Position numbers and translations under genes: made by a program. From positions 1-26,437 of the IMG/VR virus record IMGVR_UViG_3300001450_000227: a stretch of 26,437 nucleotides of DNA; one strand, given 5' to 3'. Positions 3,942-26,334 of the stretch are shown here, piece by piece (the first letter of the stretch is position 1; every line of letters starts with the position of its first letter). The notes beneath the pieces are model-generated. The model ran no database searches. It was not told the DNA's origin and saw only the letters and a list, made by a program, of their open reading frames with translations. This stretch comes from a virus.

Positions 3942-6866
3942 ATGGCAGAAAGAATTGTTAGCCCGGGTGTTTTTACACAGGAAAACGACCTTTCATTTTT
4001 ACCAGCTGGTATAGGCGAAATTGGTGCTGTAATTATAGGTAGAACAGAAAGAGGACCGGCTTTTCAACCTACCGTAATACGTTCTATGAACGATTTTGAA
4101 TTACAGTTTGGAAGTGCAACCCAAGGAACTTATGTTCCATTTACAGTTAAAGAATATATTAGAAGCGCAGGGGCTGTTACGATAGTAAGAGTTCTTGGAT
4201 TAGATGGATATGAAAATACTAAACAAGTATTTGTATATGCTTCTGGTTCTACAACATTTGCTTCAAACTCAGCTGCAACTGCAAATACTGATAAACACTT
4301 ATTAGCTGTTTTACACGCTACAGCAGACGATCCAGACCAAGAATGTTCGGCAATTTCATTTGGTGAAACTGCTGGTGGACAATTTGCAATAAAAACTGTA
4401 TTATTAGATTCAGGATCTTTAGCATTTCCTGGTGACTTAGCATCCTCTGGACCAAGTGTATATTTCCAATTAACTTCTTCTAATGATTTAAGATATAGAT
4501 TTATTGGTTTAGATACTGTAAACTTAAATGCAGTAACTAATGATATAAATACTTCTGCTGGTTCAACATCAACAGTATATTTCTTATCTAGTTCTGCAGG
4601 AAATAATGAAGACTCTTTATTATCTTTTGTGACTCAACTACAAGGTGTACAATCTAATTTGGGAATAACTGCAACTTTAGGTGCATCTCAATCAGTATCA
4701 CCTTTCCACTTTAATTTACAATTATCAGCATCAGCAATTGGATTAGCTGGTAATACAATAACATTAGCTACATCATCCCAAGGTGGCACAACAGCTGCTC
4801 AAACATTTGCAGGTGGTGCAGAAAATACTGGAAGTGGAGACTTAAGTAATTCATTAACTGGTAACGGTGTTGCAACATTTACATGGCACACTGCAGTAGC
4901 TTCTACTTGGTCATTTGATAAAGCAAACGCAAATTATTTTGAAAATCAATTACCAATGGAGCCAGGAGCATATATTCCTGGTGTTGAAACTGGTGTTGAA
5001 ACATACATAAGATCTTTTTACATACACTCACTATTTAATTCACAATCATATGGTGCTTCGGCAGATAATGTTGGTGGTGGATATGGATTTACAAAGGCTT
5101 CAGCATCTACACATGCTGTAAGCTATAACGCAGTTGCAAGTTCTGCTGGTACTGGAACAAATAGTTCTACATCTGGTAAATCTTATGTTGCTGCATGCAC
5201 TCCATGGGTAACATCTCAAACTGTTGGTGCAGGTACAAACGATCCTTTATTTAAGTTCCATACATTATCTCACGGTAATGGGTCCAATAAAATGGCAAAA
5301 ATAAGTATTGCTGCAATTAAATCTGCTGGATCAATTAGTGGACAAGATTATGGAAGCTTTACAGTACTTATTAGAAAATTTGACGATACAGATTCAAAGG
5401 TAGTTACGTTAGAAACATATGCTAATTGTAATTTAGATCCAAATTCTCCAAACTACATAGCTAGAAGAATTGGTGATAAATATAAATACTACCAAGACAT
5501 CGGTACAGATAGTAAATTAGTAGTTGCTGGTGACTATGATAATATGTCTAAATATGTAAGAGTTGAAGTAGATGAAAGAGTAAGAAATGCAATATACTCC
5601 CCACAAATAATTCCATTCGCACACGAAGCATATTTATCGCCATACCAAGCTAATTTATATGGAGCTTATCCTCCTGCAGCATTAGTAACGTCTAGAAGTT
5701 TAATGACTGATACTAAAACATATTATGGATTTAACTTTAATGAAACAATTCTTAATAATGGAATGAAATATTATCTTGCTCCATTAAGTGATACTGCAAA
5801 CATAGGATACAATGCAGCATTTAAGTTAGAAAACTGTGTTAACTCTGGTTCAACAGTAACTACAGGTTCAGCATTACACGCTAAAAGATTTACTCTTGCA
5901 TTCCAAGGAGGATTTGATGGAGTTAATCCTGCAATGCCTGTTAACCTAGGTAAAGACTTAGCACCAGGAAACAGTTTTGGATTTAACTTTAGTTCAACTG
6001 CTGGTAGTGGATATAAAGCATTTAAAAAAGCATTAGATACTGTATCTAATCCTGATGAAATAGATATTAACATGATTGTTATGCCAGGTATTCTTTCTAA
6101 GAATGCTTCAAATATAATTACAAAAGGTATCGAGGTTTGTGAAGACAGAGGTGATGCATTCTTTGTATTTGATGGTGTTAATTCTCTTGAAGGAGACTCA
6201 ATCACTGCAGCAGTTGCTCAAGCTGATTTATATGATACAAACTACGGTGCACAATATTACCCATGGGTAAAAATACTTGATGCAACTGTAAATAAATTTT
6301 TATGGGTTCCACCATCCGTAGTAGTACCTGGTGTAATCGCCTTTAATGATAAGGTTGCATTCCCTTGGTTTGCTCCTGCAGGTCTTAATAGAGGAAGTTT
6401 AGCTCAAGTATCTGACGTATATACAAGATTAACTCATGGTGAAAGAGATGATTTATATGAAGGTAAAGTTAATCCTATTGCAGTATTCCCTTCAGTTGGA
6501 GTATGTATTTGGGGCCAAAAAACCTTACAAACAAAATCTTCAGCACTTGATAGAATCAATGTTCGTAGATTATTGATAAAACTTAAGAAATTTATTGCTT
6601 CATCTACAAAATATCTTGTATTTGAACAAAACACAACAGCAACTAGAAATAGATTCTTAAATATTGTTAACCCTTATTTAGAAACAGTACAACAGCAACA
6701 AGGTTTATATGCCTTTAAAGTTGTAATGGATGAAACAAATAATACTCCAGATGTAGTTGATAGAAACCAAATGAAAGGTGAAATATTCTTACAGCCTGCA
6801 AAAGCTGCTGAATTCATCATTGTAGACTTCAACATAATGAGAACTGGTGCATCATTTGAAGAATAG
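3942..6866 (+). CDS. 18: Contractile tail sheath protein (T4 gp18 family), enlarged
   Basis: A 974-residue tail sheath subunit, the protein that surrounds the tube and contracts on infection. The N-terminus (ERIVSPGVFTQENDLSF, then GEIGAVIIGRTERGPAF and SMNDFELQFG) and the C-terminal third are typical. The latter has GGFDGVN near residue 655, INMIVMPGI, FFVFDG, a WFAPAGLNRG motif equivalent to T4's APAGFNRG, NPIAVFP, the RINVRRLL helix and a closing FIIVDFNIMRTG. T4 gp18 is 659 residues. The extra length lies mainly in residues about 95-540, a Ser/Thr/Ala/Gly-rich stretch probably forming surface-exposed insert domains. It is followed at 54 nt by the tail tube gene under its own promoter motif. 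The function call is secure; the nature of the insert is unknown. Confidence 0.95.
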   Translation: MAERIVSPGVFTQENDLSFLPAGIGEIGAVIIGRTERGPAFQPTVIRSMNDFELQFGSATQGTYVPFTVKEYIRSAGAVTIVRVLGLDGYENTKQVFVYASGSTTFASNSAATANTDKHLLAVLHATADDPDQECSAISFGETAGGQFAIKTVLLDSGSLAFPGDLASSGPSVYFQLTSSNDLRYRFIGLDTVNLNAVTNDINTSAGSTSTVYFLSSSAGNNEDSLLSFVTQLQGVQSNLGITATLGASQSVSPFHFNLQLSASAIGLAGNTITLATSSQGGTTAAQTFAGGAENTGSGDLSNSLTGNGVATFTWHTAVASTWSFDKANANYFENQLPMEPGAYIPGVETGVETYIRSFYIHSLFNSQSYGASADNVGGGYGFTKASASTHAVSYNAVASSAGTGTNSSTSGKSYVAACTPWVTSQTVGAGTNDPLFKFHTLSHGNGSNKMAKISIAAIKSAGSISGQDYGSFTVLIRKFDDTDSKVVTLETYANCNLDPNSPNYIARRIGDKYKYYQDIGTDSKLVVAGDYDNMSKYVRVEVDERVRNAIYSPQIIPFAHEAYLSPYQANLYGAYPPAALVTSRSLMTDTKTYYGFNFNETILNNGMKYYLAPLSDTANIGYNAAFKLENCVNSGSTVTTGSALHAKRFTLAFQGGFDGVNPAMPVNLGKDLAPGNSFGFNFSSTAGSGYKAFKKALDTVSNPDEIDINMIVMPGILSKNASNIITKGIEVCEDRGDAFFVFDGVNSLEGDSITAAVAQADLYDTNYGAQYYPWVKILDATVNKFLWVPPSVVVPGVIAFNDKVAFPWFAPAGLNRGSLAQVSDVYTRLTHGERDDLYEGKVNPIAVFPSVGVCIWGQKTLQTKSSALDRINVRRLLIKLKKFIASSTKYLVFEQNTTATRNRFLNIVNPYLETVQQQQGLYAFKVVMDETNNTPDVVDRNQMKGEIFLQPAKAAEFIIVDFNIMRTGASFEE

Positions 6867-6919: not shown

Positions 6920-7411
6920 ATGGCAAACTTAGTAGACCCAAGTGAAATTATGTTCACGGCCTTTGAGCCAAAACAACAAAATAGATTTATATTCTATATT
7001 GATGGAATACCTGCATATCTTATTAAGACAGCAGCTAGACCAAAGGTAGTGACTGAAGAGGTTGAATTACAACATATAAACGTTTCAAGATATGTAAAAG
7101 GTAAAACAACTTGGGACCCAATTGATATTGTACTTTATGACCCAATTGTACCATCAGGTGCACAAGCAGTAATGGAGTGGGTAAGACTACACCACGAATC
7201 AGTAACAGGTAGAGATGGTTATGCTGACTTTTATAAGAAAGATATAACAATTAATGTACTTGGACCTGTAGGAGATAAAGTAGAAGAATGGACTGGTAAA
7301 GGTGCATTGATCACTGGTGCAGATTTTGGCGCTATAGATTGGACCCAAACAGCTGCTGTTAATGAAATAACAGTATCTATTAGATGTGATTACTGGATAT
7401 TACAATACTAA
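6920..7411 (+). CDS. 19: Tail tube protein (T4 gp19 family)
   Basis: A 163-residue protein, the same length as T4 gp19, whose hexameric rings stack to form the inner tube through which DNA passes. Features seen are the N-terminal QQNRFIFYIDGIPAYLIKTA (the FIxxIDGxPAYLIK strand pattern of the family), a middle beta segment (YVKGKTTWDPIDIVLYDPI), an amphipathic helix (GAQAVMEWVRLHHESV) and a C-terminal strand EITVSIRCDYWILQY. It lies directly after the sheath gene, as in T4 and its relatives, and is followed by a terminator. It should be among the most highly expressed genes of the unit. Sequence, length and synteny agree, so confidence is high. Confidence 0.93.
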   Translation: MANLVDPSEIMFTAFEPKQQNRFIFYIDGIPAYLIKTAARPKVVTEEVELQHINVSRYVKGKTTWDPIDIVLYDPIVPSGAQAVMEWVRLHHESVTGRDGYADFYKKDITINVLGPVGDKVEEWTGKGALITGADFGAIDWTQTAAVNEITVSIRCDYWILQY

Positions 7412-7435: not shown

Positions 7436-7466
7436 AAGACCCTTACAAATGTTTGGGTCTTTTTTT
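7436..7466 (+). terminator. Rho-independent terminator after tail tube gene
   Basis: AAGACCC (7436-7442) pairs with GGGTCTT (7455-7461) around a 12-nt loop and runs into a T tract. It separates the sheath/tube unit from the gp26-family gene, which has its own promoter motif. Confidence 0.85.
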
Positions 7467-7535: not shown

Positions 7536-8417
7536 ATGGCAAAGTCCCAAGTAGTAAATCCAGACTATCCAGATCAGGATAGATTATCTAATGAAGAACT
7601 AAAAAGTAAAGTTATTAGTGAAGCACCAACTAAAAACGTTAAACAAGAAAGTGAATACAAGTTTCCAACAGAAACTATAGATTTACCATCTAAAGGTATA
7701 TTATATCCTCAAGGAAGTGTATTATCTCAAGGTAGTGTAGATGTAAAATATATGACTGCAAAAGAAGAAGATATTCTTACATCTCAAAACCTTATTAAAA
7801 ATGGAACTGTTATTGATAGATTATTGCGTTCACTTATAGTTTCACCTATAAATTACAATGACCTACTTGTTGGAGACAAAAACGCTATAATGGTAGCAGC
7901 AAGAATTCTTGCTTATGGTAAAGAATATAAGGTAGAATTAACAGATCCTAATTCTGGTGAAAAACAAGAAGAAATAGTAGACCTTACCCAATTTGAATAC
8001 AAAGATTTTAATATTGATGGACTAGAGGCTGGAGAAAATAAGTTTGTGTTTAACTTACCAGCAGCAAAAAGAACTATTGAATTTAGACTACTTTGTCATG
8101 GTGATGAAAAATCAGTACAAGACGAATTAAAAAGACAGAAAAAATCTTTTAAAGGTGGATTTGCAGGAGTAAAGCCTGAATTAAGTACTAGACTTAAAAA
8201 AATGATACTATCTGTAGATGGAGACACAGACCCTATAAAAATAAGAAACTTTGTAGAAAATGAGTTTTTGTCTAGAGACTCTTTAGCCTTTAGAGAACAT
8301 ATTGAAGCTATGTCGCCTGATATAGATTTAACATATAACTATTATAGTGAATCAACTGGTGAGGAAAATGAAATAACCCTACCAATGTCCGTTCAGTTTT
8401 TTTGGCCTAGGGCCTGA
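7536..8417 (+). CDS. 26: gp26-family (T4_baseplate) protein, probable tail assembly chaperone
   Basis: A 293-residue protein of the T4 gp26 family. The diagnostic block is present: LPSKGILYP (residues 50-58), MTAKEEDILTS (73-83), and VDRLL-like IDRLLRSLIVSPINYNDLLV followed by GDKNA and ILAYGKEY (to about 130). T4 gp26 is listed as a baseplate hub component, but gp26-like genes are not part of the mature baseplate structure as I recall it, and an assembly role fits better here. The ORF ends FFWPRA then TGA, inside a frameshift cassette: seven T at 8397-8403 and a GC hairpin at 8410-8427, with a second open frame to 8604. A tape measure gene follows, as for chaperone pairs in other tailed phages. 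Start chosen by the AGGAG 7 nt upstream. The N-terminal 45 residues are polar and likely flexible. Confidence 0.8.
   Translation: MAKSQVVNPDYPDQDRLSNEELKSKVISEAPTKNVKQESEYKFPTETIDLPSKGILYPQGSVLSQGSVDVKYMTAKEEDILTSQNLIKNGTVIDRLLRSLIVSPINYNDLLVGDKNAIMVAARILAYGKEYKVELTDPNSGEKQEEIVDLTQFEYKDFNIDGLEAGENKFVFNLPAAKRTIEFRLLCHGDEKSVQDELKRQKKSFKGGFAGVKPELSTRLKKMILSVDGDTDPIKIRNFVENEFLSRDSLAFREHIEAMSPDIDLTYNYYSESTGEENEITLPMSVQFFWPRA
8397..8403 (+). promoter_or_regulatory. Candidate slippery site (seven T) for programmed frameshift
   Basis: In the gp26 frame this reads TTT TTT TGG. A +1 or -2 slip of the peptidyl tRNA-Phe on this run keeps perfect pairing and enters the frame open to 8602-8604. The -1 frame meets TAG at 8408-8410, so it cannot be used. 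Confidence 0.7.
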
Positions 8418-8604
8418 ATATAGGCCCATTCTGCACCAAATGCTATTTGAGATGGCATACCATTCCCAAGGGGGTTTTCAATGGGCTGACCTATATGATA
8501 TGCCGGTAGCCCTTAGAAGATTCTATTGGGATAAACTTCTTGCAGCTAAAAAAGCAGAAAAAGAAGAGATGGATAAGGCTAACAAAGGGGCAAAACGAAG
8601 ATAA
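8401..8604 (+). CDS. Frameshift extension of gp26-family gene (second chaperone frame)
   Basis: A frame open from 8377 to the TAA at 8602-8604 overlaps the end of the gp26-family gene in the +1 (equivalently -2) register. From the T run it encodes about 67 residues: FGLGPEYRPILHQMLFEMAY, then HSQGGFQWADLYDMP, VALRRFYWDKLLAAKK and a Lys/Glu-rich tail. The hydrophobic/aromatic pattern looks like a real folded domain, and the 'DMPVALRRFYWDKL' core recalls short gp51-type assembly proteins of marine T4-like phages (from memory). No convincing start is present: the ATGs at 8440 and 8452 lack a Shine-Dalgarno, so expression as a fusion with the upstream protein is the best reading. The fusion would be about 353-354 residues. 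A homopolymer sequencing error (7 T for 6) is the alternative. Confidence 0.65.
   Translation, partial: FGLGPEYRPILHQMLFEMAYHSQGGFQWADLYDMPVALRRFYWDKLLAAKKAEKEEMDKANKGAKRR
8410..8427 (+). promoter_or_regulatory. GC-rich stem-loop, candidate frameshift stimulator
   Basis: GGGCCT (8410-8415) and AGGCCC (8422-8427) form a perfect 6-bp stem with a GAATAT loop, 6 nt after the seven-T run. It contains the first base of the zero-frame stop TGA. Ten of 12 stem bases are G or C in a DNA that is about two thirds AT. Confidence 0.75.
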
Positions 8605-8619
8605 AAAGCCAACTTCTTT

Positions 8620-8634
8620 GATATTTATATATGA
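8620..8634 (+). promoter_or_regulatory. Late-type promoter motif before small basic gene/tape measure
   Basis: GATATTTATATATGA, beginning 38 nt before the chosen ATG at 8658. It overlaps an upstream in-frame ATG at 8631, an argument that 8631 is not the real start. Confidence 0.7.
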
Positions 8635-8657
8635 ATCAAAATCAAAGGAGATTACAT

Positions 8658-8891
8658 ATGACCAATGAGGAAAAAGTAAGAAAGGCAGTCCGAAAGGAAA
8701 TCAAACAAACACTTAAAGAAGACAATATAGCTGTTGACCTAATATCATGGTTAACTAAAAAAATGGGTGTGTCCATAGAAAAACGCGCCATGAAAAAGTT
8801 AGCTAAAGATAAAATTTTACAAGGAGCATTAGCCGATCTTAAAGATAGGATGAAAAAATACGACTACCAAGATAATCTAGATAGAATATAG
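8658..8891 (+). CDS. Small basic helical protein upstream of tape measure, unknown
   Basis: A 77-residue protein beginning MTNEEKVRKAVRKEIKQTL. The start at 8658 is chosen because AAAGGAG lies 7 nt before it. An in-frame ATG at 8631 would add nine residues but sits inside the promoter motif and lacks a ribosome site. The protein is strongly charged (Lys/Arg with Asp/Glu), predicted almost fully helical, with no Cys, signal peptide or membrane segment. The middle KKMGVSIEKRAMKKLAKDK is markedly basic. It is encoded 11 nt before the tape measure gene, on the same transcript. A role in tail assembly is only inferred from position. I do not recognise a family. Confidence 0.75.
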   Translation: MTNEEKVRKAVRKEIKQTLKEDNIAVDLISWLTKKMGVSIEKRAMKKLAKDKILQGALADLKDRMKKYDYQDNLDRI

Positions 8892-8902
8892 GAAAATAAC
8901 AG

Positions 8903-11900
8903 GTGGCCAATAAAAAGACTCAAGGATATTACGATGCAATTACAAAGGCTCAAAAAGAGCAGTTGGCACTATTGCAAAAAATCTCGGGTCTTGAAAAAAG
9001 CATCACTAAAGAAAAGAAAGAAAATAAAATCTTTTCACAATCTATTGCAGATTTAGACCAATCAGCAGCTCTTGCGGCAAAAGCTAGGCAAACAGCTGAA
9101 GAAGGAAGATTAGGTACTTCTCAGGCCTTAACCAGCCTGGCAAGTATTGAATCAGGTATGATGAAAGACCTTCAAACTGGAGCAATACAGTTAGGTGATC
9201 TATATTCTCAACAAGAGGAATTACTTACTTCAATGAATGAAGAACATGCAGCAGAAATAGCTGCAATGGAAGAGACTGGTGCTGGATATGGCGATATAGT
9301 TAGTAAACTTGTAGAACAAAAAGCAGCTCAAGAAGAAATACAAAAGATTATGACGGAGCAAGTTGATAAGGCCATAGAATTAAATGAGGAAATGGACAAA
9401 CAGCTTATTACTGGTGAAACCATGCGTGATAGGTTAATGACCCAAAATGATACCCTTAAAAGTCAAGAAGGAGTTATTGGTGATATACAAAAAGGTGCAC
9501 AAAAATATATAGGAATATTTACTAATGGCCAAGCAGCATTTGCATTTATAGCGAATAAATTATTTGAAATGGCTAAAGCAGCTAGAGATTTTGCACAACA
9601 AGTAGGTATAGGATATGCAAGTGCAGCAAAACTACAGGCATCAGCAAATATAACAGCAGCTAAATATTCAATGATGGGTGTAGCAGTTCAAGATGTTACT
9701 GATGCCCAACAAGAATTACTCCAACTAGGTTATAGTGTTGAAAAAGTAACTATGGAAACAACAGATTCAGTTGTTTTTATGTCAAAAAGATTTGGAGTAG
9801 CTACACAATCAGCAGCAAAATTAAATAAAATAATGGCAGGTATGGCTGGACACAGTCAACAGGCAGCAGATGCAATGTTAGACCAAGCTGTTGCTCTGGC
9901 AAAGGCAAACAAAGTTGCACCCGGTGTAGTTGTTCAAGAAATGGCTAATAATGCTGGTGAATTTGCAGCTGCAGGTAAAGACGGTTTTGGAGCAATGGCA
10001 ATGACTGCGGTAGCAGCTAAAAAATTAGGTATGTCTATGTCAGAAATTGCCAGCATAGCTGATGGACTATTAAACATAGAGTCATCGATAGAGGCAGAAA
10101 TGCAAGCACAGGTTCTTACTGGTAAATCTATAAATCTAAATAGAGCCAGAGAATTAGCAAATGCAAATAATCTTATTGATATGACTAAAGAATTAGTAAA
10201 ACAATTAGGTAGCTACGAACAATTTACTAATATGACTCGTATAGAACAAGAAGCATACGCTCAATCTGTAGGTATGACTAGAACAGAATTAGCAAAAATG
10301 CTACAAAATGCAACCAAATTAGAAGGACTTACTGCAGCACAAAAAGAGCATTATAATCAAACAGGTGAAATACTAAAAGATAATGATTCAATATTAACTG
10401 CTGAAAATGCAACACTGGCCGCAAGTATTGCAACAGGATTAGTAGCAATAGGACAACTAGCTGCAAAAGGTGTAGGTTTAACAAAAAACTTATTTTTAGA
10501 AAAATCAATTACTAAAGAAAAACAAAAACAATCAAAACCTAGTAAAGGTGGTGGAACTCCTGGTAAAGGATTTAATGTAAAATCTGCCTTAAAAGCAGCT
10601 GCAGGAATGTTAATAATAGCTGCCGCAATGTTTGTTTTTGCAAAAGCTGCACAACAATTTGGGGATGGTATAAATTGGAGTAGCGTGGCTATGGGATCTG
10701 CTATACTTATTGTATTAGGTTTAGCAGCTGCTTTAATAGGAAACATGTCTTCACAAGTCATACAAGGTGCATTAGCAATGGCCATTCTTGGAATAGCACT
10801 TATACCTGCAGCATTTGCATTTAGTCTTTTAGCTGGAGTAGACGCTGGAGCCATAATTGCAATGGCTGCCGCAATTATAGTACTTTCTGCAGCCGCACTA
10901 GTTATTGGATCTATAATGATGTCTGGTGTAGGTGCAGTTGCATTTGCCGCAGGAGCAGCTGCAATTGCATTATTGGGAATAGCCATAATACCATTTGCAG
11001 GAGCCCTAAGTATGTTAAAGGGTGTAGATGTAGAAGGAACTATGTCTGGAATAGTTTCTTTGGCCGTGATTGCACCATTACTGGCATTAGCCGGAGTAGG
11101 TATGGCTTTACTTGGATTAGGAACACTAGGATTCGCGGCCGCCATGTATTTACTAGCACCAGTAATAGGAACAGCTTTACAATTTTCAGATTTAATGGTT
11201 CAATTAGCGCCAAATCTAGCTGCACTAGGTGCTGTTGGATCAGGTTTATTAGCAATAGGACCGGCTCTTGGATTAATAGGATTAGGTTTAATACCTTTTT
11301 CTCTTGGTTTATTAGCTCTTGCAATGGCTTCTTCATTTATACCTTTATTAGGTGTATTAGGAGAACATATGGCAGTATTAGGACCAGCATTAGCAGAATT
11401 AGCAGGTGCTGGAGGAAATTTACTTCTTATAGGTCCTGGACTAGCATTACTTGGTGCAAGTCTTATACCTTTTTCTTTTGGTTTATTAGCACTGGCAATG
11501 ACTGCTTCATTTATACCTTTATTGGGTGTATTAGGAGAACATATGGCAGTATTAGGACCAGCATTATCTCAATTAGCTTCAGCTGGAGGAAACTTACTAC
11601 TCATTGGTCCTGGCCTTGCCTTACTTGGTGCAAGCCTTATACCACTTGCCTTTGGATTATTAGCACTATCATTTGTTTCAGGTATGATTCCAGTTCTTGG
11701 TCAACTAGCCCCAATACTTTCTGAAATGGCGCCAGCATTAGTTGCTCTATCAGCAGCTGGACAAGGAATGTTTTTAATGGGCGCTGGTTTTGCTGCATTT
11801 GCTGGAGGATTATTACTTATGGTACCAGCACTATATGCCCTTATGCCACTAATGCCAACGTTGTTATTACTCGGTGGAATTGTTGGAACTATGGGAGCAC

Positions 11901-12094
11901 TTGGAGCGTTTAGTGGTGGAGGTGAAGAAAGTTCAGAACCCGCAGGAGAGTCAAAAGAAGGAACAGGAAACCAAGAAGTAATAGCTAAATTAGATCAGTT
12001 AATTGCAGTAATACAGCAACCAGGCGTAATAAACATGGATGGTAGAAAAGTTGGAGAGGTACTACACATGGCAAAAGGATTAGCGAGAACATAA
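8903..12094 (+). CDS. Tape measure protein
   Basis: A 1063-residue protein from a GTG start, 11 nt after the previous stop, with AGGAAA upstream. The tape measure sets tail length and is ejected through the tube. Domain layout: residues 1-205 are charged coiled coil (Gln/Glu/Lys-rich). Residues 210-490 are an alanine-rich helical core with motifs such as VVVQEMANNAGEFAAAGKDG and MSEIASIADGLLNIESSIEA, typical of tape measure cores. Residues about 555-1000 are a very hydrophobic Gly/Ala/Leu/Ile region with many potential membrane segments, including four tandem 58-residue units (739-970). The C-terminus has a Gly/Glu/Ser linker then a helix ending VINMDGRKVGEVLHMAKGL, a tail motif I associate with tape measures of marine phages. 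Position after the chaperone-like frameshift gene and before baseplate genes supports the call. Confidence 0.88.
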   Translation: MANKKTQGYYDAITKAQKEQLALLQKISGLEKSITKEKKENKIFSQSIADLDQSAALAAKARQTAEEGRLGTSQALTSLASIESGMMKDLQTGAIQLGDLYSQQEELLTSMNEEHAAEIAAMEETGAGYGDIVSKLVEQKAAQEEIQKIMTEQVDKAIELNEEMDKQLITGETMRDRLMTQNDTLKSQEGVIGDIQKGAQKYIGIFTNGQAAFAFIANKLFEMAKAARDFAQQVGIGYASAAKLQASANITAAKYSMMGVAVQDVTDAQQELLQLGYSVEKVTMETTDSVVFMSKRFGVATQSAAKLNKIMAGMAGHSQQAADAMLDQAVALAKANKVAPGVVVQEMANNAGEFAAAGKDGFGAMAMTAVAAKKLGMSMSEIASIADGLLNIESSIEAEMQAQVLTGKSINLNRARELANANNLIDMTKELVKQLGSYEQFTNMTRIEQEAYAQSVGMTRTELAKMLQNATKLEGLTAAQKEHYNQTGEILKDNDSILTAENATLAASIATGLVAIGQLAAKGVGLTKNLFLEKSITKEKQKQSKPSKGGGTPGKGFNVKSALKAAAGMLIIAAAMFVFAKAAQQFGDGINWSSVAMGSAILIVLGLAAALIGNMSSQVIQGALAMAILGIALIPAAFAFSLLAGVDAGAIIAMAAAIIVLSAAALVIGSIMMSGVGAVAFAAGAAAIALLGIAIIPFAGALSMLKGVDVEGTMSGIVSLAVIAPLLALAGVGMALLGLGTLGFAAAMYLLAPVIGTALQFSDLMVQLAPNLAALGAVGSGLLAIGPALGLIGLGLIPFSLGLLALAMASSFIPLLGVLGEHMAVLGPALAELAGAGGNLLLIGPGLALLGASLIPFSFGLLALAMTASFIPLLGVLGEHMAVLGPALSQLASAGGNLLLIGPGLALLGASLIPLAFGLLALSFVSGMIPVLGQLAPILSEMAPALVALSAAGQGMFLMGAGFAAFAGGLLLMVPALYALMPLMPTLLLLGGIVGTMGALGAFSGGGEESSEPAGESKEGTGNQEVIAKLDQLIAVIQQPGVINMDGRKVGEVLHMAKGLART
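11117..11812 (+). repeat. Four tandem 174-bp (58-residue) units in tape measure gene
   Basis: Units begin at 11117, 11291, 11465 and 11639. Units 2 and 3 are nearly identical at protein level (FIPLLGVLGEHMAVLGPAL in both) and very close at DNA level. Units 1 and 4 are degenerate but keep the same length and the LxxIGPxLxLIG pattern. Confidence 0.85.
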
Positions 12095-12095
12095 T

Positions 12096-15000
12096 ATGGC
12101 AGAAGAATTAAAAAAGTTTCAAACTACAAACCTAGCCGATTACTATTCAAAAAATGGTAGTGAATATTCTACTATGGGTGATATAACGCCATATTCTGCA
12201 GGAGGAACAAAGTTTGATAATACTTCTCCAATAGAACAAGGGTTTTTAAACCAAACTCCACTAGACGATTTTATAGCAGCATTGCAAAATCCTGAAAAAT
12301 TAGCAGCTGTTCAAGAAAAATCAGGTATTGAAGTGTTTGCATTACCAACAACCCCAGATAAAGTAGGAATATCTCCAGCTGGTTTTAGCTTTATACCATC
12401 CTTTACAACACAAAATACAAACGTATTTAATTTTATTTCAACATTTGATACTGGTTTAATTGGTGCTAATGTAGCAAATAATATGGTTGGACCTATAAAT
12501 GCTGGAATAACTGTGTCAAATAATATGATTGCTCCAGTAAATTCTGGATTAGGTGTATCAAATAATATGGGTAATCCTCCAGGAACAGCACCTTTAGTAT
12601 CAAATAATATGGGTAATCCTCCAGGAACGGCGCCTTCAGTTGCAAATAATATGGGCAATCCACCAGGAACAGCACCTTCAGTAACAAATAATATGGGTAA
12701 TCCTCTAGGAACAGCCCCTTCAGTAGCAAATAATATGTCTAATCCTAATCATGGTGTAGGTTTATTAACTCTTGTTGATGGACAACCAAATATAAATGCT
12801 TTAGGTTTTACAGGTGGAATGACAACTACTCAATTTGTAGGTATAAGTGGAGGTCCAACCAATGGAACATTTACGTATAGTCATACAGGAAATCAAGGAT
12901 TAGGTATATTAGGAATATGGAACGGCTTTAATGACGTTGATGCTACTGGATTTGTACCTGGTAAACACCATTTATCTCCATCAGATTTTACTGGTATTAG
13001 TGGTTTACCTGGAAATATGACGTTTAACTTTAATGATGTAGCTAATGGCGGTGGCCAAATATGGGCATGGAATCGTTCTATATATAATTCAAAAATAGGT
13101 GAGCCAGTTGACGGTATTCAAAATGCAAAAGCAAATGGATTTATTTTAAATAAAATACATATGGATAATATTTCAGATTTTAAAGGTGTATCTTTTCCTA
13201 AACCATATAATTATCCTGTTGAACCATCCCCGTTTCAATCGTACACCTTTACAGACTCAATTTACCCAAGTATAATGGACAAAACACAGGTTCCATCATC
13301 CCCAGGATCTGCAGATGGTATAGGTCAAGCATACAATGTAAGGCATGGAGGAAATGTAACTGGTAGAAAAACTAGATTTACAAATAGATCAGCTGATAAT
13401 ATTCAATTAGTAGGAAACTTTAAAACTACAGTAGAAGATTTATATAACTCCCTGCCATTACAAGATGAGGCATTTAATTCAGGATTTTACGGAACACAAC
13501 CATATATAACTAGAGATATAGGTTCTAACTGGAGTTTATTTAGTGATGGACCAGGACCTATACATGGTGACACTGCTGTTAGAGGTGGAGTAGGTACTTC
13601 ACTAAATAGAGCATTAAAAGACGTTGAAAGAATAGGTCAATATATGTTAAGTCCAAATGGACTAATATTTATAGCCAAAAATGTAGGAATGCAACTATCC
13701 AATCCAAAATGGCAAGGTGCCACAATATTAGGATTATCAAGAACTAGAGTTTATCCTCTTGGTTTATCAACAATAGCGCAAGTAGCAACAAATGCCGCAG
13801 GATTACATTTGGTAAGACATGGATTGGGCCCACTAGAAGGAGACGGTACCCACTATGAAAAAAGTGTAAATGAAATAGGTAGAGATAATTATACAAAGGG
13901 TACAGTATACGGTGTAGGATTAACTAGAACTAAGAGTAGATTATATGCTTTGGCTAGTGAATTAGGTTCAGGATATTTTGATAGTGATACAATGGATGCA
14001 GCAAAGCCAAAAACAGAAGGAACAGGATTTTTTGCAAAAGCTGTAAAGTGGACAAAAAAACAACTACAAAAATTAACACCTAGCCGAGAAAAAATAGATG
14101 TTCTTTCAGGACTACTTGGTCCTCATTCAGTTTATGGTATTGGTCGTACAAGAATATTTAGGTCAAATGTAGGTTTTGGTGTAGGACAACACACAAACCT
14201 TACTGGTACCCATGGAGATTCTGTTTCTTTAACAACATCTTGGGCAAATGTACCTGAAAAAGAAAGAGGTAGTAAATTAGTTAATACGGCAAACCCCCAG
14301 GCATTAAATCCAAATTTTGGAAACAATGGTTGGACACCCAAAGAAGGTAATAGATATAGTGATAATAAAGATGAGGAAGGAGGATTTAAGTCAGAAGTAG
14401 CCCCACAAATTGGGTTAATGCACCATAGACCCGGAGATGATGCAAATACTAGTGGTAGAGAATCTCCATCTTTAAGGGATAAATTAGGTGCAAAAGATTA
14501 TGAAACTGGTCTTAGCCACAGATATGAAACAATTGCATATGATAAAATAGGAAAAATACAATCACAAACAAAAAGATTAAATGACTTTAGAGAATTTACT
14601 TTCTCAAATACGGACATAGATTTAGGAATAGCAAAGAGAATATTTCAACAACCAAATGGTGGAGATGCAGGAGAAGGCCCTGCATGGAATAATGAGGATA
14701 GAGTAACTAGATTTAATGAAGACTATGGTAGGGTAGGGGTAGATAGGTCAAATAGACTAGCTGATTTAGGATTAAACGATAAAGCTGTTGGAAGAAATGC
14801 GGTTGGTATGCCAGAACCTGTAAATGCTCTAAACGAAGTAGTTATAGATGGTAACCCAACAGCAACAGAATTTCCAGACTTAATATTATTTCAATTTAAA
14901 ACATTCCAAGAAAGTAGAAATGCAATTCAATTTAGAGCAATGCTAACAGACTTTACTGATACTTTAACTCCAAACTTTGAAGATGTAGGTTATGTTGGTA

Positions 15001-15497
15001 GAACAACCCCATCATATTTATTTAAGAGTATAGCTAGAGAGACTAAATTTAGTTTTAAAATGTATGCTATGACTAGGCAAGAACTAGATGCACAATATAA
15101 AAGATTAAACAGGCTAATGCAGTCTATATCTCCAGGATATACATCTGGAAATTTACCCATTGGACCAATGCTAAAATTAACAATAGGAAATTATTTTGTA
15201 GATACACCAGTTGTTTGTGATAGTTTTGATATAAGTATACCTGATAGCTCTCCATGGGATATAGATCCAGGTAGACAATTACCACTATATCTAGAGGTTA
15301 GTATGGGCTGTAAAATAATGTTTAATGAAACTGAAAACTATGACCCTAATACTGGAGCATTTAAAACTCCAACAGAAGACAAAAAATTCCCATCACAAGT
15401 AGGACTTGCAATACTTAAGTCAACTAGTAATTATTTTAATGGGGTAAATTCTAATTTTGGACGAGGTGAATCAGCACCAGTAGCTAACGGAGAATAA
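12096..15497 (+). CDS. Large baseplate structural protein with C-terminal tube/hub-type domain
   Basis: A 1133-residue protein with three visible zones. Residues 1-125 are polar. Residues 127-224 are seven tandem 14-residue units (xNNMGNPPGTAPxV). Residues about 225-370 hold three looser modules with a GF...F.GISG pattern. A middle zone repeats short GLxRTR motifs (GLSRTRVYPLG, GVGLTRTKSRLY, GIGRTRIFRSN). The C-terminal 220 residues form a recognisable unit: FPDLILFQFKTF, a central VGRTTPSYLFKSIARETKFS, a helix MTRQELDAQYKRLNRLMQSI, then GPMLKLTIGNYFVDTPVVCD and SPWDI. This pattern of a beta-strand, helix and 'P.l.lTiG.y' is typical of tail-tube-like or baseplate hub domains of myophages. It follows the tape measure by 1 nt. 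A role at the tube-baseplate junction is inferred; the exact T4 counterpart (gp48 or gp54) is not established. Confidence 0.65.
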   Translation: MAEELKKFQTTNLADYYSKNGSEYSTMGDITPYSAGGTKFDNTSPIEQGFLNQTPLDDFIAALQNPEKLAAVQEKSGIEVFALPTTPDKVGISPAGFSFIPSFTTQNTNVFNFISTFDTGLIGANVANNMVGPINAGITVSNNMIAPVNSGLGVSNNMGNPPGTAPLVSNNMGNPPGTAPSVANNMGNPPGTAPSVTNNMGNPLGTAPSVANNMSNPNHGVGLLTLVDGQPNINALGFTGGMTTTQFVGISGGPTNGTFTYSHTGNQGLGILGIWNGFNDVDATGFVPGKHHLSPSDFTGISGLPGNMTFNFNDVANGGGQIWAWNRSIYNSKIGEPVDGIQNAKANGFILNKIHMDNISDFKGVSFPKPYNYPVEPSPFQSYTFTDSIYPSIMDKTQVPSSPGSADGIGQAYNVRHGGNVTGRKTRFTNRSADNIQLVGNFKTTVEDLYNSLPLQDEAFNSGFYGTQPYITRDIGSNWSLFSDGPGPIHGDTAVRGGVGTSLNRALKDVERIGQYMLSPNGLIFIAKNVGMQLSNPKWQGATILGLSRTRVYPLGLSTIAQVATNAAGLHLVRHGLGPLEGDGTHYEKSVNEIGRDNYTKGTVYGVGLTRTKSRLYALASELGSGYFDSDTMDAAKPKTEGTGFFAKAVKWTKKQLQKLTPSREKIDVLSGLLGPHSVYGIGRTRIFRSNVGFGVGQHTNLTGTHGDSVSLTTSWANVPEKERGSKLVNTANPQALNPNFGNNGWTPKEGNRYSDNKDEEGGFKSEVAPQIGLMHHRPGDDANTSGRESPSLRDKLGAKDYETGLSHRYETIAYDKIGKIQSQTKRLNDFREFTFSNTDIDLGIAKRIFQQPNGGDAGEGPAWNNEDRVTRFNEDYGRVGVDRSNRLADLGLNDKAVGRNAVGMPEPVNALNEVVIDGNPTATEFPDLILFQFKTFQESRNAIQFRAMLTDFTDTLTPNFEDVGYVGRTTPSYLFKSIARETKFSFKMYAMTRQELDAQYKRLNRLMQSISPGYTSGNLPIGPMLKLTIGNYFVDTPVVCDSFDISIPDSSPWDIDPGRQLPLYLEVSMGCKIMFNETENYDPNTGAFKTPTEDKKFPSQVGLAILKSTSNYFNGVNSNFGRGESAPVANGE
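12474..12767 (+). repeat. Seven tandem 42-bp (14-residue) units
   Basis: AATAATATG recurs exactly every 42 bp, at 12477, 12519, 12561, 12603, 12645, 12687 and 12729. The four middle units are nearly identical in DNA (AATCCTCCAGGAACAGC and minor variants); the outer ones are divergent. The codon frame is kept throughout. Confidence 0.95.
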
Positions 15498-15850: not shown

Positions 15851-18800
15851 GTGTCTTTATTAGGAAACGATATGGCCCCTGGCGTAAGAAAAGAATTATG
15901 CCGACGAGCAAAGATTATACCCGATGGTTATGGTCCATGGTCACATGCGAGAATTCCTTGGATTAGAGTATCTCCTTGTGTACACGATAATCAGCAATCT
16001 TCTCCTGAAAGTTTAAGAAAAAAGCATATATTATTTGGTGGATCACTACAAGGTTTAGAAAGTACATATAATATAAATACAAGAAATCGATTAGGACCAC
16101 AAAGAGACACAGATACTGGAGGAAGTCGTAGAAATACCCCAAAAGCTGGCGTAAAATCTGTTTCTATAGAAGAAAAAGGTACTTTAGGTGGAATAAAAAA
16201 GGCTATAGTCAATTTTACTGTTTGGTCAGATAAAGACCTTATTAAATATGAACGACATTTAATGACACTTGGAAAACATGTGTTAGTAGAATGGGGTTGG
16301 AACGTTGATTCACATGGATCAGTTGTTAGAACAAACTTAGGTAAGTCACAAACATCCGTAAGTCTAACAGATTCTGAACTATCATGTACCATACGTGGTA
16401 AACAATCAACAGAACACTATTGTTATGATGCAATACGTGGAATGGTTTCTAATTTTAATTGGAGTATAAATGAATTTGGTGGATTTGATTGTAAGGTAGA
16501 CTTAATTTCAAAAGGAACAACATTTTTATCTACACCAATAGAAACTGCAACAATGCATAGTGGGTGTGATGAAGACCCTGAAACGGCAGATACAGCAGGA
16601 GATGAAGGAAAAGTACATAGGCCAAATATAGAACAACCAATGGCCTTTTTAAGACAAACCCTAGCAGATACATGGGATAGTGCAGAACCTCACAAAAATA
16701 AAAATGCAGCTGGTAATGGATACATAGGAATGGCCGCTTTATTTGATAAAGAAATAGGTTTTATGGATTGGCTCGGTTCATTTTTCTCATCAGAACCAAC
16801 GAATGCAGAATTAGAATTTTATATTACTTGGGATTATTTTGAAGAATATATAATAAATAGAAAGTTAGCTCCGGCATATGCATTAGGTTCTTCAGCAGGA
16901 AAAAAAGATACGGCCCAATCAGAGCCAGGAGTAGATAAGTGTGGTAATAAAAAAACAGTCGACAATCCTCAATCATGGACATCAATATATAATAAGAATT
17001 CAGCAAATATAGATAAACACCCTAGAAAAAGTGATATTCCATATGCACTTGATAGTAGGGGTAGTGTTTTAAGAAACTCAACATTTTTAATGTCAGCTGA
17101 TCCAACAAAATGTATGCTTCCTGGCCAAGAACACTGGAAATTACACAAAATAAGACAAACAGGAATAGGAAATATTATGGCCTGGCTTGGTGGTGTTGCT
17201 GACTATGCAAAAACATATGTTGTTGAATTAGTAAAGAGTATATCTGTTTCATTAAAGGACGGGGTAACTGTAGACTATGGTAATGCAAAGAAAAAAGCAA
17301 CTGCGGCCCAAAAAGATACACAAAAACAACTACAAGAAGACTTAGCAGACGATAACGTATCTAAAACAACAGATAAACTTATGAAAAACTTTAAGCGATT
17401 TGACCCTAAAGCACCAGGTACAAATGGTCCAGGCTCATCAGGTGAAGGTTTGATTAGTAATATTATGTTAAATTTAGCATTTATAGAAGAGGTCGCAAAT
17501 GAGGCTAAAACTTTAGATGAATTTCTGGATCAACTACTACAAGGAATTCAAGATGCTTGTGGTGGCCACTGGGACCTAGTAATTTGTCCTGATCCAGATA
17601 ATCCTCAAATTGTACGGGTAATAGACCAAAATATGAAAACACCTAGTGATAAAATAAATGGTTTTCATTTTGATGGTATAGGTAGAAAATCTATATGTAG
17701 AGATATATCTATAGAAACAGATATAGATTCAAAAATGGCAGCTGTAGTAATGTACGGTAGTAATAAACATCAAAATTCAGATGTCACAAAAAGCCCACAA
17801 CCAATGGGTGGAAAAGGTTCTTCTGAATACAGTACATGGGGTGCTGGAATACAAGATTTAGTCCTAGCCGGAATAGGTCTTAGAGATTCTAAAGGTCAAG
17901 AACCAGAAGTAGATTGTTGTAATCAAGCGACTGGACATAATGGAAATGCAACTGATTCTGCATGGAGTGGCTATTTTAAAAGTGCAGAAGAATTAGCTAA
18001 TAAGGTAACCGCAGACGCAAGTGAAGGTATGGTAACTGCCATGAGAAAACTTTTAAATACTGCTAATCCCGACCAAGCACTACCAACAAAGGATGGTGTT
18101 GCTGTTGCAGCATTTCATAATGAAGATCACACAATAACAATACCACTTAAGGTTGGGTTGACTATAGACGGAATATCTGGAATAAAGTGGGGAAATATGT
18201 TTTCATTTACAAACTCTACCCCTATACCAACTAGGTATAAAAACTTTTCATTTCAAATAACCAAAGTAGAACATGAAATAAGTGATGATGGTTGGAAAAC
18301 AACTCTTGGTAGTGTAATGCGCCCATTAAAATGTAAAACATATACATCTTGTGGTAGCAATCAGGGTAAATTACCAACAGATATAGTTCCTACAACAGCT
18401 GATGTAGTTGACTATGAAATAATAACTGTTAAAGATATAGATGTAGATGATGACCAAAACACAGAAGAAACACAAGACAGGGATTCAGTCACTGCAGTAA
18501 AAATGGATACTATCCCTCCTGGAGAATTAGATACAGATTCAGATATGGAATTGGCAAAAGCAAAATGCCCTTGTCAAGATGGTACCCATCATGAAGATTG
18601 TTGTAATTCTGCATCTGAAGGAGAGGAAGGTACCATACCAGTAATAACAAAAGAAGAAGTAGAAAAAACAGACCCTGATAAAAAAGGTTGTCAATGTGCA
18701 GACGGTGAGTTTAGAGAAGATTGTTGCGAACAAAACCCAAATGACGGTGATGGAGAAAAAGAAGGTGGTGATGGTGAATGTAAGGACGATGTACCGATTG

Positions 18801-19816
18801 AAGAACCTGGATATACAGAAAATATAGAAGAAGAAAAAAATCCACCAGAAGACGTTGTTGTTGAAGACAAAGTAGAAGAGGAAGACTGTGATGATTGGGG
18901 CCCACTTGGAGAAACACTTGAATCAGGTACTATAACATATTGGCCAAGGCCAGAAATAAAATTTGAGTGGTACTATGAATTTAGAAGACATCAAAAACAT
19001 TGTTTCTTTACTGACTTTTACCTATGGAGTGGAATAGATTCTCAAACAGGTAAACCTGCATTTACTCAAATGTACCCACCATCAAGTATACCTACAAAAA
19101 ACTTGTCTGGTACTATGAATTTATTTACTGGTGCAATGCTTAATAGGCGTGCAACTGTAAAAGATGTTTCACAAATAACTGGTAAAAAGAAAAAAGAGCT
19201 AAAGGCTAAAAAATCTTATCAACAAAATAACAGATTTGAATATGGCAGATCTTCAGGAATTTCAGAAAATCAAGATGTAGATCTTAAACCAGGATCCAAT
19301 GATTCTCCTGGATTGTGGGTAGATACTCACATGCAATTCTTTAGAGAAGACCAACCATATGCTGCATGGCAAGGACCAGGTGGTATGGATGTTTGGAATA
19401 AATGGAAAGACGGTAAAGGAGGAACAAATGTAGTTCTTGGGCAAAAGAACCAAGGTGGAAGTGTAAAAGCTATGATGTCTGGTTGGATAAAACATGCTGT
19501 TTTACCTATGATGACACAAACTTGTAGAGATATAACAAAGAAGATGATAAAGGGAGCAGGTAGAAGTTCAGGTGGTAAACTATATTACAGGCCAAGTGAA
19601 ATACAATCATTAATGCAAGATGCAAAAACTGGTAAAGTACCTTATGGTTGGAACCAAGAATATTTTTCAGCAGTTAAAGAAGAAGACTTAAACGACTACA
19701 ATGATATACAATTTGTTCAAGGCTACCAAAATGCTGGAGTAGAAAATGTTAGAAACGAATTTAAAGATAAACCAGGCCGACTGTTTACTTCAAACGGAAT
19801 AAAAGCTACAGGATAA
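15851..19816 (+). CDS. Very large baseplate hub candidate with Cys-rich linker
   Basis: A 1321-residue protein from a GTG start with AAAGGAG 7 nt upstream. The N-terminal 250 residues have KAIVNFTVWSDKDLIKYERH followed by GKHVLVEWGWN, a pattern I associate with baseplate hub or hub-like proteins of marine myophages. Residues about 580-870 include FLDQLLQGIQDACGGHWDLV and a late SFQITKVEHEISDDGWKTTL, resembling the second hub barrel domain. Residues 900-1015 form an acidic, cysteine-rich linker with two copies of C-x-C-x-D-G-x4-D-C-C (906-918 and 947-959). The C-terminal 300 residues are polar and Trp/Tyr/Lys-rich with no recognised domain. No lysozyme motif is visible. It is preceded by a LysM wedge gene and followed after 6 nt by the His-rich protein. 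The hub role is inferred from pattern and position. Confidence 0.55.
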   Translation: MSLLGNDMAPGVRKELCRRAKIIPDGYGPWSHARIPWIRVSPCVHDNQQSSPESLRKKHILFGGSLQGLESTYNINTRNRLGPQRDTDTGGSRRNTPKAGVKSVSIEEKGTLGGIKKAIVNFTVWSDKDLIKYERHLMTLGKHVLVEWGWNVDSHGSVVRTNLGKSQTSVSLTDSELSCTIRGKQSTEHYCYDAIRGMVSNFNWSINEFGGFDCKVDLISKGTTFLSTPIETATMHSGCDEDPETADTAGDEGKVHRPNIEQPMAFLRQTLADTWDSAEPHKNKNAAGNGYIGMAALFDKEIGFMDWLGSFFSSEPTNAELEFYITWDYFEEYIINRKLAPAYALGSSAGKKDTAQSEPGVDKCGNKKTVDNPQSWTSIYNKNSANIDKHPRKSDIPYALDSRGSVLRNSTFLMSADPTKCMLPGQEHWKLHKIRQTGIGNIMAWLGGVADYAKTYVVELVKSISVSLKDGVTVDYGNAKKKATAAQKDTQKQLQEDLADDNVSKTTDKLMKNFKRFDPKAPGTNGPGSSGEGLISNIMLNLAFIEEVANEAKTLDEFLDQLLQGIQDACGGHWDLVICPDPDNPQIVRVIDQNMKTPSDKINGFHFDGIGRKSICRDISIETDIDSKMAAVVMYGSNKHQNSDVTKSPQPMGGKGSSEYSTWGAGIQDLVLAGIGLRDSKGQEPEVDCCNQATGHNGNATDSAWSGYFKSAEELANKVTADASEGMVTAMRKLLNTANPDQALPTKDGVAVAAFHNEDHTITIPLKVGLTIDGISGIKWGNMFSFTNSTPIPTRYKNFSFQITKVEHEISDDGWKTTLGSVMRPLKCKTYTSCGSNQGKLPTDIVPTTADVVDYEIITVKDIDVDDDQNTEETQDRDSVTAVKMDTIPPGELDTDSDMELAKAKCPCQDGTHHEDCCNSASEGEEGTIPVITKEEVEKTDPDKKGCQCADGEFREDCCEQNPNDGDGEKEGGDGECKDDVPIEEPGYTENIEEEKNPPEDVVVEDKVEEEDCDDWGPLGETLESGTITYWPRPEIKFEWYYEFRRHQKHCFFTDFYLWSGIDSQTGKPAFTQMYPPSSIPTKNLSGTMNLFTGAMLNRRATVKDVSQITGKKKKELKAKKSYQQNNRFEYGRSSGISENQDVDLKPGSNDSPGLWVDTHMQFFREDQPYAAWQGPGGMDVWNKWKDGKGGTNVVLGQKNQGGSVKAMMSGWIKHAVLPMMTQTCRDITKKMIKGAGRSSGGKLYYRPSEIQSLMQDAKTGKVPYGWNQEYFSAVKEEDLNDYNDIQFVQGYQNAGVENVRNEFKDKPGRLFTSNGIKATG
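18566..18604 (+). repeat. Cys motif copy 1 in hub candidate
   Basis: Residues 906-918, CPCQDGTHHEDCC. It matches the second motif in spacing (C-x-C-x-D-G-x4-D-C-C). Confidence 0.85.
18689..18727 (+). repeat. Cys motif copy 2 in hub candidate
   Basis: Residues 947-959, CQCADGEFREDCC, 41 residues after the first copy, in an acidic linker. Further single cysteines follow (ECKDD and EDCDDW). Confidence 0.85.
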
Positions 19817-20667: not shown

Positions 20668-20690
20668 ATTTTTATTATATTATACTAAAT
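20668..20690 (+). promoter_or_regulatory. Second-class promoter motif overlapping polymerase start
   Basis: ATTTTTATTATATTA then CTAAAT, ending on the AT of the ATG at 20689. It is almost identical to the motif at 26343-26364. A T-rich tract (20650-20657) lies about 20 nt further up. If TATATT is the -10 element, transcription would begin at or very near the start codon. Confidence 0.6.
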
Positions 20691-25317: not shown

Positions 25318-26334
25318 ATGGCAAAAAGACTAGGATACGCGTGTATAAATATGGCTTTATCGGAACAAGGCATATCATGTAATAGAAGTATGATACGAAG
25401 AACATTCGATGCTAAAGGTATTAACTATGCTTCTGAACTAATACTAATAAATATTACTAATTTACTAAAACTTGTAAACTGGAATAATGAAAACAACATA
25501 AAGGTATATCGCATGTCTAGTGATATGATGCCGTGGATGTCTGAATACGAATTAAAAGATTTACCAGATTATCAAGAAATATGTGCTTTACTAAAAGCTG
25601 TCGGCAAACTGGCAATGGATAATAACCAACGTTTATCGTTCCATCCAGGTCAATTTTGTGTATTGGCTTCTAAAAGCGAAAAAGTAGTACTTAATGCCAT
25701 TAATGAACTTAATAAATCTGCTGAAATTATGGACTTAATGGGTTTACCAAAGTCTCGTATGTCAAAAATAAATATACATGTAGGTGGCGCGTATGGCGAT
25801 AAAAAATCTGCACTTGAAAGATTTTGTAAAAACTATTTACGAACTACTCCATCAGTACAAGCAAGACTTACAGTAGAAAATGACGATAAAGCTAGTATGT
25901 ACTCAGTAAAAGATTTATATGAAGGCGTATACAAGATTGTTGGTATACCAATAGTATTTGACTATCACCACCACAAGTTTTGTACCGGTGATATGACTGA
26001 AGAACAAGCGCTTAAACTTGCATCAAAAACCTGGGGCAATGTAAAACAATGTACCCATTATTCAGAATCTAGAAGACAAGAACAAACATTAATCATGGAA
26101 GATATAATGTCTAAAAATAATATAACGCATGATACACTACAAGACTGGCCAACTATTGCAAAAATGCATAAAGAAGTTAGCAAAATAAAAGTACAAGCCC
26201 ATTCAGACTATATCATAGAAGAAATTCAAGACTATGGACTAGATATTGATGTGGTAGTTGAAGCAAAAGCAAAAGAATTAACGGTACAATCGTACCTAAA
26301 AAAATATGAAAATAACTTACAAAAAGTTTTATAA
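25318..26334 (+). CDS. uvsE: UV damage endonuclease UvdE/UvsE
   Basis: A 338-residue UV damage endonuclease, the TIM-barrel metal enzyme that nicks DNA 5' to cyclobutane dimers and 6-4 photoproducts to start alternative excision repair. Seen in order: RLGYACIN (4-11), LSFHPGQF with His109, NIHVGGAYGDKKSALERF with His154, LTVENDDK with Glu187, IVFDYHHHKF with Asp215 and His217-219, CTHYSES with His247 and QAHSDYI with His295. These are the expected metal-site positions of the family, so the enzyme looks intact, and length fits. The leader has no clear Shine-Dalgarno. It lies beside the gp32-like gene under a similar promoter motif, so early expression to protect or repair DNA in sunlit water is a reasonable inference. 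Confidence 0.95.
   Translation: MAKRLGYACINMALSEQGISCNRSMIRRTFDAKGINYASELILINITNLLKLVNWNNENNIKVYRMSSDMMPWMSEYELKDLPDYQEICALLKAVGKLAMDNNQRLSFHPGQFCVLASKSEKVVLNAINELNKSAEIMDLMGLPKSRMSKINIHVGGAYGDKKSALERFCKNYLRTTPSVQARLTVENDDKASMYSVKDLYEGVYKIVGIPIVFDYHHHKFCTGDMTEEQALKLASKTWGNVKQCTHYSESRRQEQTLIMEDIMSKNNITHDTLQDWPTIAKMHKEVSKIKVQAHSDYIIEEIQDYGLDIDVVVEAKAKELTVQSYLKKYENNLQKVL

Follow-up and report, generated by a model that had tools for sequence, protein, structure and literature searches.

Probable +1 programmed ribosomal frameshifting in the gp26-like tail assembly chaperone gene of a clade of environmental T4-like phages

Slippage in the P site with a shift into the +1 frame is known from the RF2 gene (prfB) with its CUU_UGA site. 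Among +1 sites, a slow or rare A-site codon or a stop codon in the A site is common though not universal, and U-UUU-UUY (T-TTT-TTC or T-TTT-TTT on the DNA level) constitutes the classical -1 heptamer. Concerning tail assembly chaperones (TAC), a review of 2016 holds the frameshift to be conserved among phages with long tails, "except T4" (PMC5009743). The title of Vladimirov, Gautam and Davidson 2022 proposes that T4-like phages use another mechanism than frameshifting; as related in PMC10885494, Vladimirov et al. 2022 describe short and long TAC genes in lieu of frameshifting for some T4-like phages, and PMC12846349 refers to the same work with regard to -1 signals of the poly-T kind in TAC genes of T4-like phages. 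Judged from this title and these citations, priority for the +1 group treated here is uncertain. A GTTTTT site for a -1 shift of the tail chaperone is reported for Vandenendeviridae and Andersonviridae (PMC12846349). Shifts of tail chaperones into the +1 frame have been suggested for haloarchaeal myoviruses, i.e., HSTV-2 and the HF1 group (PMC5009743, PMC7230728), and +1 shifts at CCC_UGA are described for tsh and cps of the Listeria phages PSA/A118, a -2 shift being known in phage Mu (PMC5009743). Furthermore, the +1 motif UUU_CGN of influenza A PA-X and of amalgavirus is cited in PMC7230728.

The locus studied here is situated in a metagenomic virus record of 26,437 bases (IMGVR_UViG_3300001450_000227), the whole of which is referred to as the window; its features are compiled in Table 1.

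Table 1. Features of the tail chaperone locus and of its neighbours in the window
Feature	Coordinates	Strand	Basis
Tail tube gene	6920..7411	+	phrog_4542, E 7e-24
TAC-N, gp26-like short tail assembly chaperone (0-frame ORF, 293 aa, stop TGA 8415-8417)	7536..8417	+	PF12322, phrog_150, predicted fold
T7 shift site, codons TTT TTT T(GG)	8397..8403	+	Conservation in 95/113 distinct sites, variants, preceding base
Spacer, 6 nt	8404-8409	+	Read from sequence
+1-frame C domain of TAC-NC (66 codons GLGPEY...KRR, stop TAA 8602-8604)	8404..8604	+	Purifying selection, motif, predicted fold
Hairpin, 6 bp, GGGCCT/AGGCCC, probable lineage-specific stimulator	8410..8427	+	Recoding test, covariation
Probable tape measure gene, 1063 aa	8903..12094	+	Length, position, synteny

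The 0-frame ORF ends with CAG TTT TTT TGG CCT AGG GCC TGA, with the run of seven T (T7) in phase 0. The arms of the hairpin (GGGCCT at 8410-8415 with AGGCCC at 8422-8427, 6/6 pairs) overlap the 0-frame TGA, the -1 frame is closed by TAG at 8408-8410, and the +1 frame is open through the T run up to its TAA. From its last upstream stop up to the conserved motif GLGPEYR, the +1 frame of the window contains no ATG, GTG or TTG. Reading TTT TTT T|GGC yields the fusion TAC-NC of 355 aa (...PMSVQFFGLGPEYRPILHQ...GAKRR) with the junction VQFF-GLGPEY; the run contains two tandem UUU codons, and a +1 slip at either of them leads to the identical product. In these points, the original prediction proved exact: run, spacer and hairpin over the 0-frame stop have the coordinates it gave, and re-reading of the sequence confirms a +1 frame open without usable start and a closed -1 frame. 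T7 runs are found 22 times on both strands of the window vs. 39.5 expected, and the one at the shift site is the only in-frame TTT-TTT-T among the window ORFs. A lone T7 run is not unusual in such AT-rich DNA, so that its significance has to come from comparison, i.e., from conservation.

The 0-frame protein matches PF12322 (T4_baseplate) across the whole N domain and above the curated cut-off (E 2.4e-9, 37.7 bits at a cut-off of 24.5, profile positions 10-219/219). On phrog_150 it covers positions 9-234/282, T4 gp26 spanning 14-235 and T4 gp51 13-280 of the same profile; by these profile coordinates, the frame change falls exactly where gp26 ends and gp51 continues (position 234-235). Genes with PF12322 number two in T4 and one each in SP-15, LIS04 and PA5oct, and one homologue each is found in the Microcystis phage Mel-JY01 and in the Flavobacterium phage immuto. 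Compared with predicted viral folds, the predicted fold of the N domain (pLDDT 84.5) resembles that of T4-like baseplate hub proteins; among solved structures, neither sequence search nor fold search of the N domain gave a match. Concerning the +1-frame C domain, no family was found in Pfam. Compared with the C-terminus of gp51, its position is right and its motif similar, and hhalign against this single sequence is not significant; position and motif together suggest homology of the two. The C domain (66 residues) is predicted to be a compact, three-helix fold (pLDDT 89.6) with weak matches only among viral folds (best E 0.04). The N and C halves were folded separately, from unchanged translations, and three rows from phage records were left out of the alignment behind the folding of the C domain.

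The gene is located among tail genes, between tube and tape measure. The syntenic counterparts of the probable tape measure gene are annotated as tape measure in immuto and LIS04, and its product itself matches no family in the Pfam and PHROG profiles. As far as gene order and family assignment tell, the locus has the place and the logic of tail assembly chaperones, with a short TAC-N and a long TAC-NC. The C domain is followed by an 86-aa ORF without significant family match (8631-8891) and then by the tape measure gene. Behind the tail tube gene, a stem of AAGACCC / GGGTCTT with a 12-nt loop and T7 (7436-7466) looks like an intrinsic terminator parting the tube gene from the chaperone genes; because of its loop length, it was not reported by the terminator scan.

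Of the 84 rows of a first set (eighty viral contigs plus isolates), 79 carry precisely seven T in phase 0, reach the 0-frame stop only a few codons further on and have a coding +1 frame, which exhibits the conserved motif GLxPxYRxxLHxQIFxLxYxGxGGFxxxxVYNMPxxLRxFY. Four further scans enlarged the set to 306 loci. Scoring by N-domain and C-domain profiles places the C domain in the +1 frame in 203 loci, in the -1 frame in 87 and in the 0 frame in none; in 16 it was not detected. Going by the frame of the C domain, +1 is the rule in a large environmental clade and -1 in a related group including giant phages. The expectation that a +1 shift would be unusual in the gp26 family is thus contradicted, the +1 frame being the rule for the clade of the window; homologues with a single unbroken frame, which the original prediction had named as speaking against a frameshift, are absent from all 306 loci.

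The window clade comprises 113 distinct slip sites. The form N-TTT-TTT-T is present in 95 of them (83 TTT-TTT-TGG-CCT, 5 TTT-TTT-TGG-CCA and 7 TTT-TTT-TAC-CCT), and the others are 12 TTC-TTT-TGG-CCT, 5 TTT-CTT-TGG-CCT and 1 TTT-CTA-TTC-CCT. Ten out of ten further loci, obtained from metagenome genome bins, likewise carry the run, nine of them with exactly T7 and one (L311) with eight T, the extra T being situated on the 3' side of the run. The bins in which relatives are found (L308-L318) are mostly Bacteroidota (Flavobacteriales, Saprospiraceae), which gives a hint of the host group; viral contigs may be binned wrongly.

Over 132 nt past the site in 218 sequence pairs, codon positions 1/2/3 of the +1 frame differ 1422/826/3645 times, and single-base codon differences in this frame comprise 2543 synonymous vs. 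818 non-synonymous ones, the reverse being the case in the other two frames. To judge from these differences, purifying selection acts strongly on the +1 frame. In 60/113 loci, including the window (there by inspection), no ATG, GTG or TTG is found upstream in the +1 frame, i.e., this frame is coding and selected without a start of its own. All sites are related by phylogeny, such that P values overstate their independence.

The shift had originally been described as +1/-2. The frameshift and the +1 direction stand, whereas the -2 alternative fails at the variant sites. A Mu-type -2 shift, i.e., a two-base backward slip on the T run, would add one extra Phe, and a T7 run by itself would indeed allow the P-site tRNA at the second UUU to re-pair two bases back. 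At 18/113 variant sites such re-pairing is impossible, yet these exhibit the same +1-frame layout and are of several independent origins, the tree showing three or more origins of the TTT-CTT form and two of the TTC-TTT form. A +1 slip requires just UUU and a next base acceptable to tRNA-Phe at the wobble position. It is compatible with TTC-TTT-TGG via the second codon and with TTT-CTA-TTC and TTT-CTT-TGG via the first (UUU to UUC), and TTT-CTT-TGG offers, as an alternative +1 route, CUU to UUU as in RF2. Altogether, re-pairing of the P-site tRNA one base downstream is possible at 113/113 sites of the clade and at 10/10 further loci. Since the natural variants cannot support -2 re-pairing, the shift is taken to be +1, and a -2 shift was rejected as improbable.

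Slippage of RNA polymerase, by which some mRNAs would contain six (or nine) U and be read without ribosomal shift, was rejected by means of the same variants (TTC-TTT-TGG, TTT-CTT-TGG and TTT-CTA-TTC) and is rated as even less probable. A homopolymer T run in an AT-rich genome would lend itself to such slippage, and the product would be identical to that of the +1 shift; however, relatives with runs of only four or three T retain the layout, and lengthening of T7 on its 5' side is avoided instead of favoured.

This avoidance concerns the base preceding the run, which at the +1 T7 sites is T in 0/95. As a control, T occupies the third positions of codons -2 to -6 in 22-31 of 95 and precedes other TTT codons of the same genes in 21%; where a T-ending synonym is available (75 sites), T before the run occurs 0 times vs. 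39.1 expected from codon usage. In the -1 group (relatives of PA5oct, XacN1 and RAS14), 63/65 distinct sites are T-TTT-TTC or T-TTT-TTT. Among all TTT-TTY sites, T precedes in 62/62 of the -1 sites vs. 1/104 of the +1 sites, a contrast mostly between two clades whose P of 2e-45 overstates independence. The ten bin loci, which were fetched after the rule was formed, possess an in-phase T run and a C domain in the +1 frame, with a preceding T in none. In the window, the preceding base is G and the -1 frame meets its stop at 8408, such that no X-XXY-YYZ heptamer with an open -1 frame is found. Across the compared sequences, one base ahead of the run appears to decide between forward and backward slip.

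The odd loci behave, as far as their sequences can be trusted, as this rule predicts. L205 belongs to the SP-15 group, which is otherwise +1; its site reads GAT-TTT-TTT and its C domain is in the -1 frame. In L161, which belongs to the window clade, T7 is lost in favour of A-AAT-TTC and the C domain is again in the -1 frame, an apparent switch of direction inside the +1 clade seen in a single metagenomic contig; both are single metagenomic loci that could hide assembly errors. In L297 and L303, sister to the TTT-CTT-TGG loci, the C domain is a separate ORF starting at an ATG of its own, and the slip sites have decayed, which constitutes an apparent loss of recoding.

Concerning the related groups, PA5oct/XacN1/RAS14-like loci (L208-L287, L088, L090-L092) possess a -1 C domain behind T-TTT-TTC, and their annotations end at the short ORF. 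The SP-15-like loci (L173-L207, L083, L087, L089) have TTT-CGN at the +1 site in 17/25 distinct sites; a subgroup of these with LF-N-P carries AAT-CCC-AGT in place of TTT-CGN, and the slip may there have moved to the proline codon.

That the second frame is a gene with a start of its own, in translational coupling with the first, is about as improbable as polymerase slippage. An independent start is real in L297 and L303, and the annotation of Mel-JY01 assigns a TTG start to the C domain; but the window lacks any ATG, GTG or TTG before the conserved motif, for which reason an independent start was rejected there, as many of the loci lack one upstream (see above), and the seven-T site is retained where the start is absent and decayed in L297 and L303. 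Homologues with their own start, the second kind that had been named as speaking against a frameshift, are thus confined to this one sister lineage, in which the slip site is lost. A sequencing error or a decayed gene can practically be dismissed: sequencing of T7 runs is prone to errors and the window stems from metagenomic data, but run and phase are the same in isolate genomes and in scores of separate contigs, and the +1 frame is under purifying selection.

The hairpin of the window has -12.1 kcal/mol vs. a mean of -4.5 and surpasses 200/200 synonymous recodings of the same peptide. Throughout the sites, 33% are more stable than their recodings at the 5% level, and the remainder exhibits little or no structure. 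In 19 loci with the hairpin in the same register, double changes are found at 4/6 pairs (e.g., GGGCTT/AAGCCC and GCGTCT/AGACGC); these loci were picked for pairing, such that covariation counts as evidence and the percentage of pairing does not. As an essential element the hairpin was discarded, being missing from about two thirds of the sites. It is probably a lineage-specific stimulator, accessory because it is present at only about a third of the sites. The hairpin had been taken as one of the standard elements of a recoding site; it is present and covaries, but it is lineage-specific, and in the alignment of homologues it does not share the conservation of T run and two-frame layout.

In summary of layout, conservation, selection on the +1 frame, absent start codon and variants that admit only +1, all of which are read from the sequences, the locus very probably makes both tail assembly chaperones of a T4-like myovirus via +1 programmed ribosomal frameshifting. 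In the mechanism that we infer, from the occurrence and efficiency of the shift to the effect of the hairpin and the roles of the chaperones, most ribosomes would read the gp26-like ORF to its TGA at 8415 and produce TAC-N of 293 aa. Some ribosomes would slip forward by one base with tRNA-Phe (anticodon GAA) in the P site on the UUU at 8397-8399 or 8400-8402; the tRNA would re-pair with the overlapping UUU, skipping one U, and reading would continue with GGC CUA GGG to the TAA at 8602, giving TAC-NC of 355 aa (VQFF-GLGPEY...KRR). T7 would offer two chances of slipping, since either UUU can slip with the identical product, and the downstream hairpin probably lifts efficiency in the lineage of the window. 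By analogy to lambda gpG/gpGT, the tape measure protein would be bound by many TAC-N and few TAC-NC, with the C domain recruiting the tube subunit. The TAC proteins of lambda are not present in its virions. No tRNA genes were found within the window.

The A-site codon of the window site, UGG, is neither a stop nor slow or rare: in the codon usage of the window it amounts to 11.0 per 1000 vs. 5.4 per 1000 for the shifted GGC. A published predictor demands that the shifted A-site codon be the commoner one (PMC10885494) and would probably reject the window site because UGG is commoner than GGC there.

Chances are about even that this clade of environmental T4-like phages possesses an undescribed kind of +1 site (UUU_UUU_UGG, with a common sense codon) together with a one-base register code at a homologous Phe-Phe, by which U-UUU-UUC leads to -1 and non-U-UUU-UUU-N to +1, and that lineages have switched among +1, -1 and separate genes with the two isoforms kept. 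These data point to the use of recoding by relatives of T4 gp26, in the large environmental group mostly into the +1 frame. As a natural collection of sites whose direction seems to depend on one base, they provide a handle on forward vs. backward slippage. Furthermore, annotations lack or mis-call some 70 to 100 residues of the long chaperone: in Mel-JY01 (L081 3824-4060), the C domain is annotated as a separate hypothetical protein with the TTG start mentioned above, and in immuto (L082 3851-3961) as a 36-aa fragment.

Concerning the other genes of the window, the tail sheath gene (3942-6866, 974 aa) has its sheath domains confined to the last ~270 residues, behind a long N-terminal part. 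A 1321-aa protein (15851-19816) has no Pfam match; near the C-terminal third, it exhibits CPCQDGTHHEDCC / CQCADGEFREDCC motifs rich in Cys. Also encoded are a short protein resembling family A DNA polymerases (20689-21990, 433 aa, PF00476) and a UV-endonuclease UvdE (25318-26334, PF03851, E 1.7e-58). Internal protein repeats are found in the translations of 1-801 (~30-aa units of FVKMSGSFIPHKDNHFDLG), of 8903-12094, the tape measure gene (GVLGEHMAVLGPAL), and of 12096-15497 (NNMGNPPGTAP).

The organization of the locus is similar to that of T4 gp26/gp51 (TAC-N/TAC-NC), with which it shares the family, an N domain common to the short and the long version, and the boundary at phrog_150 position 234-235; T4, however, possesses two separate genes, whereas the window has a single gene with a +1 shift. 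Lambda G-GT, P2 E-E' and the Vandenendeviridae and Andersonviridae likewise have the position between tube and tape measure, an extension at low frequency close to where the short gene ends, and a poly-T site, but they shift to -1, whereas the window shifts to +1 and the 5' base completing U-UUU-UUU is avoided. HSTV-2 and HF1 resemble the window in the +1 direction, in the P-site UUU (TTT-CGC in HF1) and in gene position; they are other viruses with other proteins, and the A-site codon in the window clade is UGG. The SP-15-like relatives share TTT-CGN with the HF1-type motif. Influenza A PA-X and amalgavirus also involve a slip of tRNA-Phe from UUU to UUC/UUU, as proposed for the window, which differs by UUU_UGG instead of UUU_CGN, by two tandem UUU codons and by being a bacterial virus. 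Listeria phages PSA/A118 equally exhibit +1 shifts in structural genes of phages, but in other genes and at a proline codon beside a stop or before a pseudoknot. P-site slippage to +1 is common to RF2 prfB and the window, and the five TTT-CTT-TGG sites resemble CUU_U; in the window, by contrast, the A site is occupied by a sense codon, several codons ahead of the stop.
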